Notes: generated by a model from the sequence alone, not told the origin. DNA of 64,000 nucleotides from Methanobacteriota archaeon (GCA_016841665.1 JAENYT010000003.1:83376-147375), one strand, 5' to 3'; counted from the stretch's first letter, positions 8,556-60,570 are shown. Translations and numbers: made by a program.

Positions 8556-9107
8556 TTACCGGAGTATCGCCGCGAGACCGAGGGCGCCGATCGCCACGCC
8601 CAATGTTGCGAGGAAGAAGCCGAGGGTGATCAGCAGGACGGATTTCATCTTCTCCCACCGGAAGAGCCACGCGATAACCGGGCAGGCATAGAGGCCGAGC
8701 CCCGGGATCCAGGAGATAAAAATGAGTGAATAGATGCCGAATTTCTCCAGTCGTTCGAATTTTTTCATCTTTTCTACGATCCCATCGACCCTTGCTTTGA
8801 CCCATTCTGACTGGTAGTAGAGGGTGTCGAGGATCTCGTAGATGGCGAGCACCATCCCGAAGGCATACGAGGTCATCACCGCCAGCACCAGTGACGCAGT
8901 GAGACCCGTGGCGAGCCCCACCGTCACCGCGGTCGCCTGCAGGATGAGGGTGGAGAACACCAGGCCCAGGATTCTGCCCGAAGGAACACCGGCCAGCGCA
9001 CCGAGGATCAGGGGGATCACGAGAGCGAACAACATCACAATGAGGAGCGCTTTCGAAATCTGGCGCAACCATGCGAAAAGACCCTGTATTTCCATGAAAA
9101 TCTCCAC
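8556..9107 (-). CDS. Small multidrug export-like / VTT-like membrane protein
   Basis: Multi-TM ORF with FGIYSLIFISWIPGLGLYACPVIAWLFRW. Confidence 0.6.
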   Translation of the reverse strand: MEIFMEIQGLFAWLRQISKALLIVMLFALVIPLILGALAGVPSGRILGLVFSTLILQATAVTVGLATGLTASLVLAVMTSYAFGMVLAIYEILDTLYYQSEWVKARVDGIVEKMKKFERLEKFGIYSLIFISWIPGLGLYACPVIAWLFRWEKMKSVLLITLGFFLATLGVAIGALGLAAILR

Positions 9108-9241
9108 ACCTGATCGTGAGGTGCGCTACCGCACGGAAGGGGCGAGCAGGTGATACATTACACAGAACGATGCTATAAAAATATTTTTATAATATATGGT
9201 GGTGGGGATACTCACAGCTCAACGCACAGGGAGGAGCTGCG

Positions 9242-9448
9242 ATGAACAGAACGATGTGCTTGATTTTAGTGGTGCTCTGCATCGCGGGCCTGGTCCTGAT
9301 TGCAGGGTGCACACAGGAGACTCCGCCGGAGACAACTCCGACGCCGACATCGACAGTAGAACTGCCCACCGAAGTCCCCAATGTCTCTCCCACGGAGGCA
9401 ACGCCGGCAGTTGAGGTGACCGCGGAACCGACGGTGAACCAGACCTGA
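9242..9448 (+). CDS. Small lipoprotein
   Basis: MNRTMCLILVVLCIAGLVLIAGCTQETPPETTPTPTS...; lipobox and Thr/Pro-rich tail. Confidence 0.6.
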   Translation: MNRTMCLILVVLCIAGLVLIAGCTQETPPETTPTPTSTVELPTEVPNVSPTEATPAVEVTAEPTVNQT

Positions 9449-9627
9449 ACCACCAATCTCACCTTTTTTTCAGCCCTCAGCACGTCGGAGGGGAACCCGG
9501 GTCCGGAAGCGATGTTCTTTGCGATGTACATTGGAGGGAGGTCCCCTGGTTTTTCCCGCTGTGCTGTAGTAATTATGCGATCCGTGTCCGTTCCGGCCAA
9601 TGAATCCCATGGTCATTTATTTGTCGC

Positions 9628-10485
9628 TTATCTCTCCAGTTCTTCCTGCCTGTTACGCAATTCCCCCTCGATCTTCTCAAGCCGGCTGAGAATCTCGGCA
9701 TACATCTTCTCCTGCTGCTCCATCAATTTCCTGATTTCCGCGCTATTTGTGCCCTTATCTGGTTTCGTGGATGCGTGTTGGTCCCTGTGCCTCCGGGGGG
9801 CGATCAGCTTGTTGGAGAGAAACCCTGCCAGCGTACCAAAAATGCTCACGCCTGCGGCCATGAGAAAGACGCCCACGATCCGGCCCCGTGGGGTGACGGG
9901 GTACTGATCGCCGTAGCCGACGGTGGTGGTGGTTACGTAGGCCCACCAGAGGGCATCGCCTGCGGTCCTGATGTTTGCATCCGCAGCAGAGCGCTCCGCA
10001 TGCAGCACCAAAATCGAACATAATTCGATGAGAGCGATGATGAAGAATATGACGAAATAAAGCGCTCCTGACGCTCGTTCTTCGGAAAAGTCATATTTCA
10101 ACCGCCTGATGCCGAACTTTCGCATCAGCGAGACGATTCTCCCGATGCTGAAAAGGCGGAAGATCTTCATGCCCGGCAACGGGACCGAGGAGAGGAGGTC
10201 GGCCCAGCCCCAGTCCCGGCTGACGTAGTAGGCCTTCGATTCTGCGGTGAACAGACGGTACAGGAAATCCGCGAAGAACACGGCGGAGAGGAAGATATCG
10301 ATGACCAATGCCACTGCCGTTGCATCAGGGTAGAACGTGGGAAAGATGAGAAAGATGATGTTGCACACTGCGAGCAGGGAGGTGAGCAGGATGAAACCCT
10401 CATAGCTTGCTCCCTTGAAGCCGATGGGAGGCGTTGTGGGCTCGGTCATCGATATTCCCTCGTGGTGAGGCTCAGAATCCGGCAT
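9628..10485 (-). CDS. Voltage-gated-type potassium/ion channel
   Basis: TTTVGYGDQYPVTPRGR selectivity filter, multiple TM helices, C-terminal coiled coil. Confidence 0.9.
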   Translation of the reverse strand: MPDSEPHHEGISMTEPTTPPIGFKGASYEGFILLTSLLAVCNIIFLIFPTFYPDATAVALVIDIFLSAVFFADFLYRLFTAESKAYYVSRDWGWADLLSSVPLPGMKIFRLFSIGRIVSLMRKFGIRRLKYDFSEERASGALYFVIFFIIALIELCSILVLHAERSAADANIRTAGDALWWAYVTTTTVGYGDQYPVTPRGRIVGVFLMAAGVSIFGTLAGFLSNKLIAPRRHRDQHASTKPDKGTNSAEIRKLMEQQEKMYAEILSRLEKIEGELRNRQEELER

Positions 10486-10488
10486 ACT

Positions 10489-11805
10489 TCATCTGCCGCA
10501 GCACTTTTTGTATTTCAGCCCGCTCCCGCAGGGGCAGGTATCATTTCGCCCGATTTTTGCCGTTCTTTTCCCTCCTGCTCTCTCCTCAGCGGCGAGCATC
10601 GGCATCACCTCGTCGGCGTAGCGCCCCTGCCGGAGCAGGTCGGCCATCATCCGCATGGGGCGGTCGATGTGGGAGAAGAACATCCGGTAGCCCTCGCAGA
10701 GGTAGTTGAGGCCCGGTTCACCGTCCGGCGTCGTGGCAAACCGGTTCCTGGGGCAGCCGCCGTGGCAGGCGAACCGCACGGGACACTCCCGGCAGAATCC
10801 AGGGAGTGCGTTTTGCTTGTCCTGCCCGAATTGCCGCTGCTTTGCCGAGCCGACGAGTTCTGCGAGGGGTGTTGCCGTGATGTTACCCAGAAGGAAGCCC
10901 GGCTCCACGAAATGGTCGCAAGAGTAGAGGTCGCCGTTGTGCTCCAGTGCGACAGCGGCGCCGCAGGTGGGTGCAAACGTGCACAGCCCGGGGGGGTGGC
11001 CGATCCCTGCCGCGAGGGCAGCATCGAAGTGCTGCACGAACATCTCCCCCACATCATTCCGCACCCACTCGTCGAAGACGGTGCAGAGGAACCGCCCCCA
11101 CTGCACCGGCCGGACCGAACGGTCAGTGGCCGTAGCTTCCTCCTGAACGCCGGCCCCGTTGTGCCGCTCGACGATGGGAATGAACTGGACGAATTTTGCC
11201 CCGGCCTCGTCGCGGAAGAATCGGTAGACGTCGAGGGGGTGGTCGCCGTTTGCGGCGTGCACCGCGCTGAGGATGTTGTACTCCACCCCGTGCTTTTGCA
11301 GGAGGCGACGTCCCTCCATCACCCGATCAAAGGTCCCCCGCCCCTTCCTGTCCACCCGGTAGGCATCGTGCAGCGCCTTCGGCCCGTCGATGCTGATGCC
11401 GACGAGGAAGTTATGCTCCTGGAAGAATGCGCACCACTCGGCATCCAGGAGGGTGCCGTTGGTCTGGATGGTGTATCCCACCTGCATGCCGGGTTTGCGG
11501 TAGTGCTCCGCCAGCTCCACGGAGCGGCGGTAGAAATCGAGGCCCATCAGGGTGGGCTCCCCCCCCTGCCAGGCGATGGTCACGGCGGGCACCTTTTGGG
11601 CTTCGATGTACTGGCGGAGAAACTCCTCCAGCAGCGAATCGGACATGCGGAAGGTGCCGCCGGGGTAGAGCTCCTGTTTCGAGAGGTAGAAGCAGTAGCG
11701 GCAGGCGAGATTGCAGCGCGCACCGGCGGGCTTGGCGAGCACGTGGAAGGAGGGAGGTGGGGTGTTCACGGGCTCCTTCACCTCGTGTTCCCGGATATTC
11801 CGCAT
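10489..11805 (-). CDS. Anaerobic sulfatase-maturating enzyme (radical SAM, SPASM) with C-terminal SEC-C motif
   Basis: CNLACRYCFYLSKQELYPGG (CX3CX2C), SPASM-type Cys clusters, C-terminal CPCGSGLKYKKCCGR. Confidence 0.92.
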   Translation of the reverse strand: MRNIREHEVKEPVNTPPPSFHVLAKPAGARCNLACRYCFYLSKQELYPGGTFRMSDSLLEEFLRQYIEAQKVPAVTIAWQGGEPTLMGLDFYRRSVELAEHYRKPGMQVGYTIQTNGTLLDAEWCAFFQEHNFLVGISIDGPKALHDAYRVDRKGRGTFDRVMEGRRLLQKHGVEYNILSAVHAANGDHPLDVYRFFRDEAGAKFVQFIPIVERHNGAGVQEEATATDRSVRPVQWGRFLCTVFDEWVRNDVGEMFVQHFDAALAAGIGHPPGLCTFAPTCGAAVALEHNGDLYSCDHFVEPGFLLGNITATPLAELVGSAKQRQFGQDKQNALPGFCRECPVRFACHGGCPRNRFATTPDGEPGLNYLCEGYRMFFSHIDRPMRMMADLLRQGRYADEVMPMLAAEERAGGKRTAKIGRNDTCPCGSGLKYKKCCGR

Positions 11806-53805: not shown

Positions 53806-53998
53806 ATCACGAGCAACCCCATCGATCTGATGTCATATGTTTCACAAGAGCATTGTCGTCGCAGCACTTGGAAAAGAAATCCGGGTCGTTCATGAAAGCA
53901 TCCGTTCGCGACCTCGATCCTGAAACCCTGTTGGAAGGGTACCTTCATAGGAATCATTAACCGCAATGTTTAAATAGACAACCTCTCAATGTTGACAT

Positions 53999-54445
53999 GT
54001 GCCTCTCCCCTTGAATGACCGCCAGTTTGAGTTCTGGAGGCTCCGACGCAACGGCCTCGCCAATATACGCATCGCGGAGATCTTCCATATATCCCGGCAG
54101 GCGGTCTCAAAAGCACTCCTTTCCATGGATGGAAAGGTCGAGACCACGCTCCTTGAGATGGCCCACGCGAACCAGATCGAGATGGAGAAGCTGAACGCGG
54201 AGAAAGGAGTGCTCTTCGGGCGCTCAATCCCGTTTAATGCAGCCGCTATCGTGTTTATCTCCGTAAAGCACGGGGTACAGGTCTGGTACGAACACGAGGG
54301 AGACTGCGGTTCCTGCCCGCGTTACACGCAATGTATCGAGTTGCTCTGGGATTTTGCCGATGAGATGGGGGTTGAACTGACAACGACCGATGACCCGACG
54401 CGGATGGCGGATGAGCTGTTTGCGAAATTACAGGAGCTCGTGTGA
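53999..54445 (+). CDS. HTH regulator (sigma-70 region 4-like/Tx-type) with C-terminal Cys cluster
   Basis: LNDRQFEFWRLRRNGLANIRIAEIFHISRQAVSKALLSMD...DCGSCPRYTQC. Confidence 0.85.
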   Translation: MPLPLNDRQFEFWRLRRNGLANIRIAEIFHISRQAVSKALLSMDGKVETTLLEMAHANQIEMEKLNAEKGVLFGRSIPFNAAAIVFISVKHGVQVWYEHEGDCGSCPRYTQCIELLWDFADEMGVELTTTDDPTRMADELFAKLQELV

Positions 54446-55086
54446 TCATGCCTCTCACGGACACGATACGGGCGTACCTCGGGTGGTGCCCCGCGGCCGG
54501 ATCAATGCGGGTGAATCGGCCGGTGCACCCGGAGGCCGGAACGGTGGACGCATCGGCTGGGAGGGACGAAGCCCCGGAGATCGTTCATCACTGGCGGAGC
54601 CGCTACCGCAATCAGCTGCTGGTCATGGCGGTAACCATGTCGGTGGCGGCAGCGACACTCTTTCTCCTGATCGAGGAAGTACCTGGATACTATACGGTGG
54701 GCATTGCCATCGGGATTGGCTCAGGGATAGGGTTCCTGCTCAGCTACCAAAAGAGATATGCCCGCGTCGCTGCCGGTGAGTTCGCCAGGGCCCGCGGGAC
54801 CCGGGCACAGCGTGTCATCCGGTATTTAACATCGCTGACGTTGTTTTCCGTGCCGGCATCGTTCGTTGTGATTGTCGCCGGTGTGGCGTGTTTTGCACTG
54901 CTGGGTCTGGTCGGAGCGATTTTCGCATTTTCGCTGGGGATGAGCATTACATGGTGGGCCCTCTATTGCCTCACGGTCTTCTGGGAACGGCGGCACCAGA
55001 CAACCCTGATATCAGACCATGGTTTGATGTATACAATGGATATGGTGGTGCATGGCGACAACAGGTCGGAGGGAGGCGTATGGTGA
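54442..55086 (+). CDS. GWCP-motif membrane protein, paralogue 1 (DUF1673-like)
   Basis: RAYLGWCPAAGSMRVNR...; TM pairs; start overlaps the HTH gene. Confidence 0.8.
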   Translation: MIMPLTDTIRAYLGWCPAAGSMRVNRPVHPEAGTVDASAGRDEAPEIVHHWRSRYRNQLLVMAVTMSVAAATLFLLIEEVPGYYTVGIAIGIGSGIGFLLSYQKRYARVAAGEFARARGTRAQRVIRYLTSLTLFSVPASFVVIVAGVACFALLGLVGAIFAFSLGMSITWWALYCLTVFWERRHQTTLISDHGLMYTMDMVVHGDNRSEGGVW

Positions 55087-55781
55087 CGAGGCTCGCGGAA
55101 GCACTACGAAAATGGGCGGGATGGTGCCCGAATCAGGGCGTGAGTGCGTCGTTTCAGAGAACCAACCGCTATGCCGATTCACATTCTCCAGCACCTCCTG
55201 ACAATGATGCGCAGGTGCTGAGCGGTGTGATCGTGGATTATGGAGGATGGATCAGCACTCCTTCTCTTGTCATTGCGTTGGCTGCAGGTTTCGTCGTACT
55301 TGTCCTGTATCTCTCCGTCATGTATCCTCCCGCAGGCGGCTTTCTGTTCCTGACGCTCTGTCTGGCCTATTCCGGCATGGAACTGTACACGACGTTGCGA
55401 AGAGACCGGATTGAGGTAGCTGGGGATTGCATCGTCTTCCGGCGGTCGCTCCTCCCGTCCGTCACCATTCCGAAGGACACCGTCGTGAAGGCGGAGGTGA
55501 GAGAAAACAAACCCCCCATGCCTTTCTGGCTCCTCGCGGCGGCAATTGTATTGATCCTGGCGTCAGCAGTCGGTAGTATCTACAGAGGATTGGATAATCC
55601 TGCTTCGTTTCGGGTTATATGTGGTTTCGGCGCCGCGGTCTTTTTCCCCGTGATGTTCTACCGCACCTGCATCCGCACACGCTACCCGCAGGTGCTGGCG
55701 CTCACGACTGCACAGAAAAAAATCGCTATGATCTATGCCGATGATCCCGATAGCATCGCAGGGATTCTGGAGGTATCCTGA
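55080..55781 (+). CDS. GWCP-motif membrane protein, paralogue 2
   Basis: MVTRLAEALRKWAGWCPNQGVSASFQRTNR...; ATG overlaps the previous stop codon. Confidence 0.8.
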   Translation: MVTRLAEALRKWAGWCPNQGVSASFQRTNRYADSHSPAPPDNDAQVLSGVIVDYGGWISTPSLVIALAAGFVVLVLYLSVMYPPAGGFLFLTLCLAYSGMELYTTLRRDRIEVAGDCIVFRRSLLPSVTIPKDTVVKAEVRENKPPMPFWLLAAAIVLILASAVGSIYRGLDNPASFRVICGFGAAVFFPVMFYRTCIRTRYPQVLALTTAQKKIAMIYADDPDSIAGILEVS

Positions 55782-56263
55782 TGGCAATCTTTGTGGAATT
55801 TTTCAGGAAAAAACTCGGGTGGTGCCCCAACGCGAATTCCATCAGAACGTCCGGGCACACGGGGCAGGAAACGGAATTCGGAAATGCACGCAAGAAATTT
55901 GATCCAGAAAAGAGTCCGGATCCGGCATCCGCCGGTGCCAGCGGAGGCGTTCAATCCGAATACAAGGAAAACATACTGTTGATCCTCATTGCGGTGGCCT
56001 GGCTGTTTCCGGTCGTCTACCAGCGTGAGTTTCTCCCCATCCTCGCCGTCCTGAGCGCCGTTGCCATGTATTGCGATGCACAGGATATTCATGCCGGCCG
56101 CAATTTCGAGAAAGAGACGTTACTCGGCAATGTTGTCACCTGGCGCCCCCTCACGTGGGGAGCGGCAACGTTCGTAGGCGGGATTATTATTATGGCCATT
56201 TACCTGTTCCACCGAAGGGAGATCTTCAATGCAAACAGGGAGGGCAGCGTTCGTGAACAGTAG
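55781..56263 (+). CDS. GWCP-motif membrane protein, paralogue 3
   Basis: MAIFVEFFRKKLGWCPNANSIRTSGHT...; TGATG overlap with the previous gene. Confidence 0.8.
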   Translation: MAIFVEFFRKKLGWCPNANSIRTSGHTGQETEFGNARKKFDPEKSPDPASAGASGGVQSEYKENILLILIAVAWLFPVVYQREFLPILAVLSAVAMYCDAQDIHAGRNFEKETLLGNVVTWRPLTWGAATFVGGIIIMAIYLFHRREIFNANREGSVREQ

Positions 56264-56822
56264 GTCATGGGTTGAAAGATATGCCGGCTGGTGCCCGCGT
56301 GCGAGTGCGTTCCGTTCTGATCTCGATACCGGCTCGATTCTGCAGGATACGCAAAAAAGCAGGGCTGCGCTGCCTCGGCGGGTCCTCGCACCCGCGCTGG
56401 TATTCCTCCTCCCCCTCCTATCTGCGTTGATTTTTGTGGGTTATACCCTCATGATCCCGGTTCTTCTCCCCTCGACGGAGGTGCAATTGGCGGTGAAATC
56501 CCTCATGGTCGGCATCCCGGAGGCCGTCGTCATCCTGTACGGCCGAAGGACACTCGATGCGATCGGTGCGACGCTCTCGGGTGCGTTCCTGTACCCTCTC
56601 TTCGGGATATACTCCCAGGCCCTTGGTCTGCTATTCATTCCCGGGTTCATGGCAACGCCGGCTATATACTGGCTGCACTGGAGCATGGTCGTCGGCGCTG
56701 TGCCCTTTGTCGTTCTGCTGGGTGCGATGGGCTTTTTCGCATCGAAAAAAACGAGCGGACCGCTTCTCATTGCAGCCATTCTCGGCACGCTGGCGATTGC
56801 GATCGTGTGGGGGCTGGGCTGA
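56253..56822 (+). CDS. GWCP-motif membrane protein, paralogue 4
   Basis: GTG start; VNSRSWVERYAGWCPRASAFRSDLDT...; 5 TM-like segments. Confidence 0.78.
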   Translation: MNSRSWVERYAGWCPRASAFRSDLDTGSILQDTQKSRAALPRRVLAPALVFLLPLLSALIFVGYTLMIPVLLPSTEVQLAVKSLMVGIPEAVVILYGRRTLDAIGATLSGAFLYPLFGIYSQALGLLFIPGFMATPAIYWLHWSMVVGAVPFVVLLGAMGFFASKKTSGPLLIAAILGTLAIAIVWGLG

Positions 56823-56837
56823 ACTCTACGGCAGAAG

Positions 56838-57392
56838 GTGGATGAAATGAATGTTCTAAAAAAATTGAAGGTTTTAATGGGGTGCCCGAACGCAGGCATG
56901 CAGCCGGACCGGAGACCGGTGAGCGATATCGGGTATCCACATCAGGTACTGGTAATGGCAGTAACGATGACCTTAACTGTCACAGCGCTGTTTTTATTGT
57001 TCGACACTACCCCGGATGTACACCGGAAAGCGTCGACTATCGGGATTTCGGTCGGGATTGCAGCAATTCTTGTTACCCTGTGGCATTCCTGGAAGAGATA
57101 TGACAGAATTGATGCAGGTGGATTGAGCAGAACACATGAAACGAAACGACAACGAACTCTCCGGTATATTGGCATTCTTGGTTTTTCCATCGCGGTAATC
57201 GGCTCGATGGCATGGTGGGCATTGAATAGCGACTTTGGTCTCATTCTTGCGGAATTCGTGGGTGCAGGCATGGTCGTCTGGGCGTCATACCTCACCGTGG
57301 TCGTCTGGGAGAGGCGCCATCACAAGGTAGTGATGTCGGAAAAAAAGTCAATGTACACAGTGGATGTGACATTTGGGCGCACTTTGCGCTAA
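56838..57392 (+). CDS. GWCP-like membrane protein, paralogue 5
   Basis: MDEMNVLKKLKVLMGCPNAGMQPDRRPVSD...; body resembles paralogue 1 (HQVLVMAVTMTLTVTALFLLFDTTPD vs NQLLVMAVTMSVAAATLFLLIEEVPG; ERRHHKVVMSEKKSMYTVDV vs ERRHQTTLISDHGLMYTMDM). Confidence 0.8.
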   Translation: MDEMNVLKKLKVLMGCPNAGMQPDRRPVSDIGYPHQVLVMAVTMTLTVTALFLLFDTTPDVHRKASTIGISVGIAAILVTLWHSWKRYDRIDAGGLSRTHETKRQRTLRYIGILGFSIAVIGSMAWWALNSDFGLILAEFVGAGMVVWASYLTVVVWERRHHKVVMSEKKSMYTVDVTFGRTLR

Positions 57393-60279: not shown

Positions 60280-60570
60280 TCATCTCGTGCGTGGGTGATC
60301 GGTTTTTTCATTCTTCCCTCCGTTCTCTCCTCGTCGAAGGGCATGACGGAGGACATTCGTGATAGTGGGGTCTGTCAATTTTTCTTTACGTCGATACCAG
60401 ACCATGATGAGGAAGTGCAGTGCAGTGGGAATCAATGCCAGGATAAATGTGGAGGATAGTGGTAATGGGAGGTATCCACGTATTATCAGGAAACCAATAG
60501 CGAGAAACGAGATGAAGTATACAGCAATCGAGCGCCACAATTCCTCCCTGATGATAAAATCGATTTTCAT
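60280..60570 (-). CDS. Small membrane protein (96 aa)
   Basis: MKIDFIIREELWRSIAVYFISFLAIGFLIIRGYLPLPLSSTFILALIPTALHFLIMVWYRR. Confidence 0.5.
   Translation of the reverse strand: MKIDFIIREELWRSIAVYFISFLAIGFLIIRGYLPLPLSSTFILALIPTALHFLIMVWYRRKEKLTDPTITNVLRHALRRGENGGKNEKTDHPRTR

Follow-up and report, generated by a model that had tools for sequence, protein, structure and literature searches.

The locus described here lies in a Methanobacteriota archaeon (GCA_016841665.1 JAENYT010000003.1:83376-147375), of which a stretch of 64,000 nucleotides, hereafter the window, was analyzed. Six open reading frames (ORFs), at 53999, 54442, 55080, 55781, 56253, and 56838, follow one another on the plus strand. 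The first and second gene overlap by 4 bases; the next three overlaps measure 7, 1, and 11 bases, whereas 15 bases separate 56838 from the gene before it (Table 1). The first gene encodes a helix-turn-helix (HTH) protein with the cysteine cluster CGSCPRYTQC, below called the regulator. The other five encode membrane proteins, each with several hydrophobic segments and a short N-terminal leader, which reads IRAYLGWCPAA, LRKWAGWCPNQ, FRKKLGWCPNA, VERYAGWCPRA, and KVLMGCPNAG in genes 2 to 6, respectively. A test for the N-terminal MGWCP motif recovered GWCP in four of the five leader genes and MGCP in the fifth. Compared with the LMGWCPN of its relatives, the leader at 56838-56897 (LMGCPN) has lost the Trp codon and is perhaps decaying. 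An earlier interpretation made from the DNA alone (the sequence-only reading) had described the overlapping six-gene operon, the HTH protein with its cluster, and five leader membrane proteins, the last with MGCPN, and all of these were found in place.

Table 1. Features of the regulator-leader operon and related operator sites.
Feature	Position or locus	Strand	Basis and remarks
TATA-like box TTTAAATA	53969..53976	+	Sequence; same A/T-rich box in aligned upstream regions
Operator palindrome GACAACCT-CTCA-ATGTTGAC	53977..53996	.	14/16 to GTCAACAT-N4-ATGTTGAC; ends 2 nt before start codon
HTH regulator, 148 amino acids, Tfx/EnfR-like organization	53999..54445	+	Sequence, AlphaFold2, Foldseek
H99-x3-C103-x2-C106-x5-C112 motif of regulator	54293..54334	+	Conservation; weak PF10588 match
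Leader membrane protein 1, DUF1673 type	54442..55086	+	Leader 54442-54501, predicted disordered linker, helical membrane part
Leader membrane protein 2, cluster 2	55080..55781	+	Leader 55080-55139; kin match PF07895, weakly DUF6585
Leader membrane protein 3, cluster 6, ~160 amino acids	55781..56263	+	Leader 55781-55840
Leader membrane protein 4, cluster 10	56253..56822	+	Leader 56253-56312; rare cluster, one relative (in L137)
Leader membrane protein 5, DUF1673 type	56838..57392	+	Degenerate leader MGCPN, Trp missing
Type II sites before exported, probably anchored proteins	L037, L041, L042, L090, L092, L111, L119, L124-L126, L128, L131		

The product of 54442 matched DUF1673 (PF07895) with an expectation value (E) of 1.3e-10 and 42 bits, exceeding the curated cut-off of 30.4 bits. 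In PMC4158269, DUF1673 (arCOG06827) is annotated as a "membrane protein expansion in Methanosarcina, MGWCP motif," and the relation to DUF1673 proposed in the sequence-only reading is borne out on both counts. The matches of 55080, 55781, and 56838 were sub-threshold (19-24 bits, E 1e-3 to 5e-5), and the product of 56253 gave no match to the PF07895 profile. BLAST clustering of the parts past the leader placed 54442 and 56838 in one family and 55080, 55781, and 56253 in three others.

In front of the regulator gene, a TATA-like box is followed by an 8-4-8 palindrome and then by the start codon; in the window, the distance from the box to the GTG codon suggests a leaderless transcript. The type I form of this operator, GTCAACAT-N4-ATGTTGAC, was found at 82 regulator genes with 13 to 16 of 16 positions, and a type II form, GTAAATGT-N4-ACATTTAC, at 21 with 12 to 16 of 16. 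The palindrome ends 2 bases from the start codon in 99 of these 103 genes and 3 or 4 bases from it in the other four. A second search covered 80 named loci of Methanoculleus, Methanoregula, Methanolinea, Methanospirillum, Methanosarcina, Methanolobus, Ca. Methanoperedens, ANME-2, and others; it shares some contigs with the first set and is only partly independent of it. The operator was present in 80/80 of these loci, 2 to 4 bases before the start and with at most 4 mismatches. The window genome contains exactly one site with at most 2 mismatches, in front of the operon, and a control pattern gave 0 sites in this genome, even at 3 mismatches. A chance operator is ruled out by the fixed distance to the start codon together with the control pattern. 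Autoregulation through the operator is strongly supported by this conserved arrangement, which also supports the earlier proposal that the HTH protein controls the array. Because the operator lies across the presumed transcription start, the regulator probably acts as a repressor.

The association of regulator and leader genes extends well beyond the window. Within the class (232 genomes), DUF1673 occurred in 84 genomes and the HTH protein in 104. Both were present in 81 genomes, DUF1673 only in 3, the HTH protein only in 23, and neither in 125 (Fisher p=5e-37, a value that ignores genome kinship and so overstates independence). The three genomes with DUF1673 only are all drafts of 290-330 contigs. 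When the HTH profile was run on a sample of the whole phylum, full-length members appeared in Methanosarcinaceae and in further families. Outside the class, 20 DUF1673 loci were sampled, and the regulator was present in 19, two being only partial (L157, and L164, where the contig ends). Almost every sampled genome that contains DUF1673 has the HTH-leader arrangement, far beyond chance, and the regulator is the first gene of nearly all such arrays in Methanomicrobiales, Methanosarcinaceae, and Methanoperedens-type archaea. Usually, the next gene begins 4 bases inside the regulator gene, and 1 to 12 leader genes follow per array. In the second search, a recognizable leader gene directly followed the regulator in 68 of the 78 loci with enough downstream sequence. 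The HTH-(GWCP)n order is conserved across methanogens; neither a failure to co-occur nor an unconserved motif, which the sequence-only reading had named as evidence that would speak against it, was observed. The nearest relatives of the window regulator belong to a Methanomicrobiaceae metagenome-assembled genome (90%) and to Methanoculleus (about 80%). A regulator with a GWCP gene also stands on a contig labeled Caldiserica bacterium UBA646 (L322), which is probably a misbinned archaeal contig.

The regulator itself carries a highly conserved cysteine site. Cys 103, 106, and 112 were present in 103/103 full-length regulators and in 80/80 of the second search, and His 99 in 101/103. The profile of the NuoG His-Cys3 [4Fe-4S] region (PF10588) matched 44 of 58 regulators weakly (best E 5e-4); the window regulator scored 13.5 bits against a cut-off of 27 bits, with identical ligand spacing. 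A metal or redox site in the regulator is plausible on this basis, which for the HTH protein agrees with the redox or metal sensing suggested earlier. The AlphaFold2 model of the regulator (predicted local distance difference test [pLDDT] 91, predicted template modeling score 0.84) comprises two helices, a long helix, strands, and two helices. The best Protein Data Bank (PDB) match in Foldseek was EnfR (8hno), a weak one (probability 0.85, E 0.12, template modeling score 0.35). The TIGR00721 (Tfx) profile matched residues 5-38 only, with 14 bits versus the cut-off of 60.25 bits (E 0.034), and we therefore call the regulator Tfx/EnfR-like, not a Tfx member.

The leader, about 18 amino acids long and predicted to consist of a short amphipathic helix followed by G-W-C-P, behaves in the comparison as a separate, exchangeable module, common to more than ten clusters of membrane domains. 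By their C-terminal parts, 308 leader proteins fell into 17 BLAST groups at E 1e-4. Named domains behind the leader are SdpI with DUF1648 (E 3e-17), PLDc_N (7e-7), Yip1 (4e-16), and DUF1673, and one further group gave a weak match to GPDPase_memb/DUF6159. SdpI domains occur in 19 leader proteins. In a relative, a leader protein from cluster 4 exceeded the PF13630 (SdpI) cut-off (E 3e-17); no window gene did. In the AlphaFold2 model of the 54442 product, a leader helix (residues 5-12) is followed by a segment with pLDDT <50 (residues 20-42) and a confident helical bundle, as expected for a peptide on a flexible tether. The sequence-only reading had proposed a pore-forming complex of divergent paralogues. 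A single paralogue family was rejected in view of the 17 groups, between some of which very distant homology is possible; the leader is borne by mostly unrelated membrane domains. For a pore-forming complex no evidence was found among membrane parts that include SdpI, Yip1, PLDc_N, and PH-like types. A pore or toxin likewise gained no support, as the DUF1673 model has no channel-like fold and no defense-family match was obtained; against PDB folds, this model found no match (best E 1.5). A leaderless ORF of 96 amino acids at 60280-60570 on the minus strand, 3 kb from the operon and in the opposite orientation, shares 57% identity with the membrane part of leader proteins in cluster 8, which come from Methanoculleus-type arrays, and may be a detached or decayed module.

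Regulators, operators, and leaders come in two matched types. Type II regulators form one clade inside type I (support 100/100) and differ from type I regulators at positions 32, 35, and 38 of the recognition helix and also around the Cys site, at 107, 108, 111, 115, and 116. The type II leader reads GLC[RP]K, and an acidic residue replaces Arg/Lys four positions before the Gly. All 35 leaders in type II operons carry GLC or GFC, and 271 of the 273 in type I operons carry W; one of the two exceptions is the degenerate MGCPN leader of the window. The motif filter took both leader types in either operon, so that agreement of type was not built in; the near-invariance of the leader Cys and Pro partly was. 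From the earlier notion of a paired invariant Cys-Pro, one Cys-Pro per protein remains: it is not paired, and the Pro is not kept in type II leaders. That reading contained neither the operator nor the second type of regulator, leader, and operator, and it did not recognize the leader as a module that is shared and exchanged.

In the largest of the families that occur in both operon types, strongly supported branches force at least four moves between types, and clusters 2 and 6 have GLC leaders in type II operons and GWCP in their type I kin. Since the membrane domains do not follow the type split, the leader travels with the regulator, not with the membrane domain. In evolutionary terms, a duplicated regulator switched its recognition helix, its operator, and its cognate leader. 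The matching of leader and regulator is the main support for a putative physical link between them. A change of charge, from R108 to E108 in the regulator versus N(+4) to K in the leader, would suit direct contact but reflects one event.

Operators were also found away from regulator genes. Type I sites with 0 or 1 mismatch precede the gene for a Yip1 protein (Pfam E 7e-25) in eight genomes, which belong to two genera (G172, G180, G181, G192-G195, and G207), an eight-helix membrane protein in G193 and G194 (in G192 with 2 mismatches), orphan leader genes in G195 and G172, and a lipoprotein in G110. Type II operators lie exactly 2 bases upstream of the start codons of exported KPFVTIVAKGDQSYYMGEKVVFSG-type proteins of 300-615 amino acids beside type II arrays (12 loci). 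The interpretable targets other than regulator genes are, by prediction, membrane or exported proteins. Trans sites with 2 mismatches are often due to chance: about 0.6 are expected per 2.2 Mb, and genomes without the HTH protein show such sites too. One two-mismatch type I site (L240, site 2207) lies 76 nt before an archaeal pilin-like gene and may be a chance occurrence.

Comparison of the genomes bears out a dedicated, apparently autoregulated operon, a shared leader, matched channels, and predicted envelope targets. With some reserve, we favor a self-controlled membrane-sensing module, in which a Tfx/EnfR-like autorepressor is set by membrane sensors that dock via a common leader. The regulator, probably a dimer, would repress its own operon by binding the palindrome that separates TATA box and start codon. 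The leaders would dock on the regulator, most likely around the His-Cys3 site, and the state of the membrane proteins, hence that of the envelope, would decide whether the regulator resides on the DNA or at the membrane. The output would be more of the same membrane proteins and, in relatives, other envelope proteins. More tentatively, the module may exemplify a general archaeal design, in which one regulator reads many membrane sensors through a detachable docking peptide, new sensors join by acquiring the peptide, and two orthogonal channels coexist in one cell. The docking site would perhaps be a metal cluster, possibly completed or contacted by the leader Cys.

Several points weigh against the sensing module. 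Type II regulators have a single origin, and the joint switch of helix, operator, and leader therefore counts as one event; the re-matching of leaders could stem from recombination within arrays. At shared leader residues, the fraction of identical codons was 0.56 within arrays and 0.50 between them, with 0.41 expected. Gene conversion might even be the sole cause of the leader matching, but only mild homogenization is seen. The predicted fold resembles EnfR weakly (E 0.12), repression is read from the position of the operator, and leader-regulator binding, the metal, and the signal are putative. Some loci also depart from the pattern. The locus L163/L246 (G529) lacks a regulator and is the clearest exception: in L246, four leader genes (8626-11429) have neither HTH gene nor operator within the 12 kb read. 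Ten of the 78 regulator genes in the second search lack a recognizable adjacent leader gene: one is followed by GRCP, one by GWFP, and one by GWCL, at least two cases appear to be truncated or to carry a frameshift, and in about five there is no adjacent leader gene. The GWFP leader, downstream of the regulator in Methanolinea (L292), represents a natural loss of the leader Cys.

The alternative that survives best, though we consider it unlikely, is autoregulation only via the regulator's own metal or redox site, with the leader serving as a targeting or assembly tag to one complex or insertase. Neither the operator nor the His-Cys3 motif needs a leader, unlike membrane domains share it as they would a sorting tag, and the regulon includes leaderless exported and membrane targets. 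A general sorting tag, however, should not change together with the regulator type, and the leaders agree with the type of the regulator even on membrane domains that stem from the other type. Clearly less probable is a single metal clasp shared by the three regulator Cys and the leader Cys, in which metal or redox state alone would decide tethering. The invariance of the three Cys, the presence of one Cys in nearly every leader, and the position of the type-differing residues around the Cys site would suit such a clasp. However, His99 already completes a four-ligand set like that of NuoG, and because His99 is almost invariant, the case for the leader Cys as the missing fourth ligand is weakened; L292 has lost this Cys, and its invariance elsewhere is partly built into the motif search. 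A defense or self-immunity cassette under a dedicated repressor, acting through SdpI-like protection from peptide toxins or cell killing on phage attack, is very improbable: the SdpI domains, patchy presence, variable copy number, and listing of DUF1673 among archaeal dark-matter-island families would fit it, but PADLOC-DB gave no family at E up to 0.01 for the six window proteins, operator sites also precede Yip1 and exported proteins, and no toxin gene was seen beside the array, although no systematic search was made.

Only PMC4158269 and PMC4390880 turned up as papers on DUF1673; according to the latter, it is one of the largest superclusters without COG counterparts. Neither a regulator nor an operator is mentioned in the parts of PMC4158269 and PMC4390880 searched, and a literature search for MGWCP returned only PMC4158269. 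In the literature searched, with subscription papers thinly covered, we found no description of the regulator, the operator, or their partnership with the leader proteins. The sensing module favored above suggests an undescribed way for methane-cycling archaea to sense the state of their envelope. Little is known on how archaea pass envelope signals to transcription factors, and the DUF1673/MGWCP proteins, among the larger unexplained families of methanogens, are thereby no longer an orphan family but part of a regulatory system that can be tested. The system spans the tractable Methanosarcina, Methanoculleus, and the methane-oxidizing Methanoperedens. If docking proves true, the two matched sets provide a ready test of specificity and might supply components for controlling methanogen genes orthogonally.

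Each part of the system resembles a known one. EnfR of Thermococcus onnurineus (TON_1525, PDB 8hno), a member of the Tfx family, occupies a pseudo-palindrome close to the start codon as a dimer, and its authors, seeing no effector domain, propose an unknown antirepressor (PMC10570040). The regulator shares with Tfx/EnfR a length of about 148 amino acids and a pseudo-palindromic operator near the start, and the order of its predicted elements (two N-terminal helices, a long stem helix, an alpha+beta C-terminal domain) would fit that fold. It differs in its nearly invariant His-Cys3 motif, the word cysteine being absent from the EnfR paper (PMC10570040), and in its dedicated membrane partners. 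With DUF1673/arCOG06827, the array shares the 54442 product, a member with the same leader; whereas Pfam joins leader and membrane part, the leader is separate here and also found on SdpI, Yip1, PLDc_N, and others. The H-x3-C-x2-C-x5-C spacing is that of the NuoG His-Cys3 region (PF10588), but here the score is below the cut-off, the motif stands in a DNA-binding protein, and the metal is a prediction.

In Bacillus subtilis, on one view, SdpI holds SdpR at the membrane. As in SdpR/SdpI, the repressor gene stands beside a gene for the membrane protein that it controls, and some leader proteins have true SdpI and DUF1648 domains. In contrast, the regulator described here is not ArsR-like, it has many unlike membrane partners that share a common leader, and it comes in two insulated types. 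SdpR has been described as the repressor and SdpI as conferring autoimmunity and sequestering SDP (PMC13343845). By analogy, we lean towards a mechanism that would be SdpR/SdpI-like in its logic.

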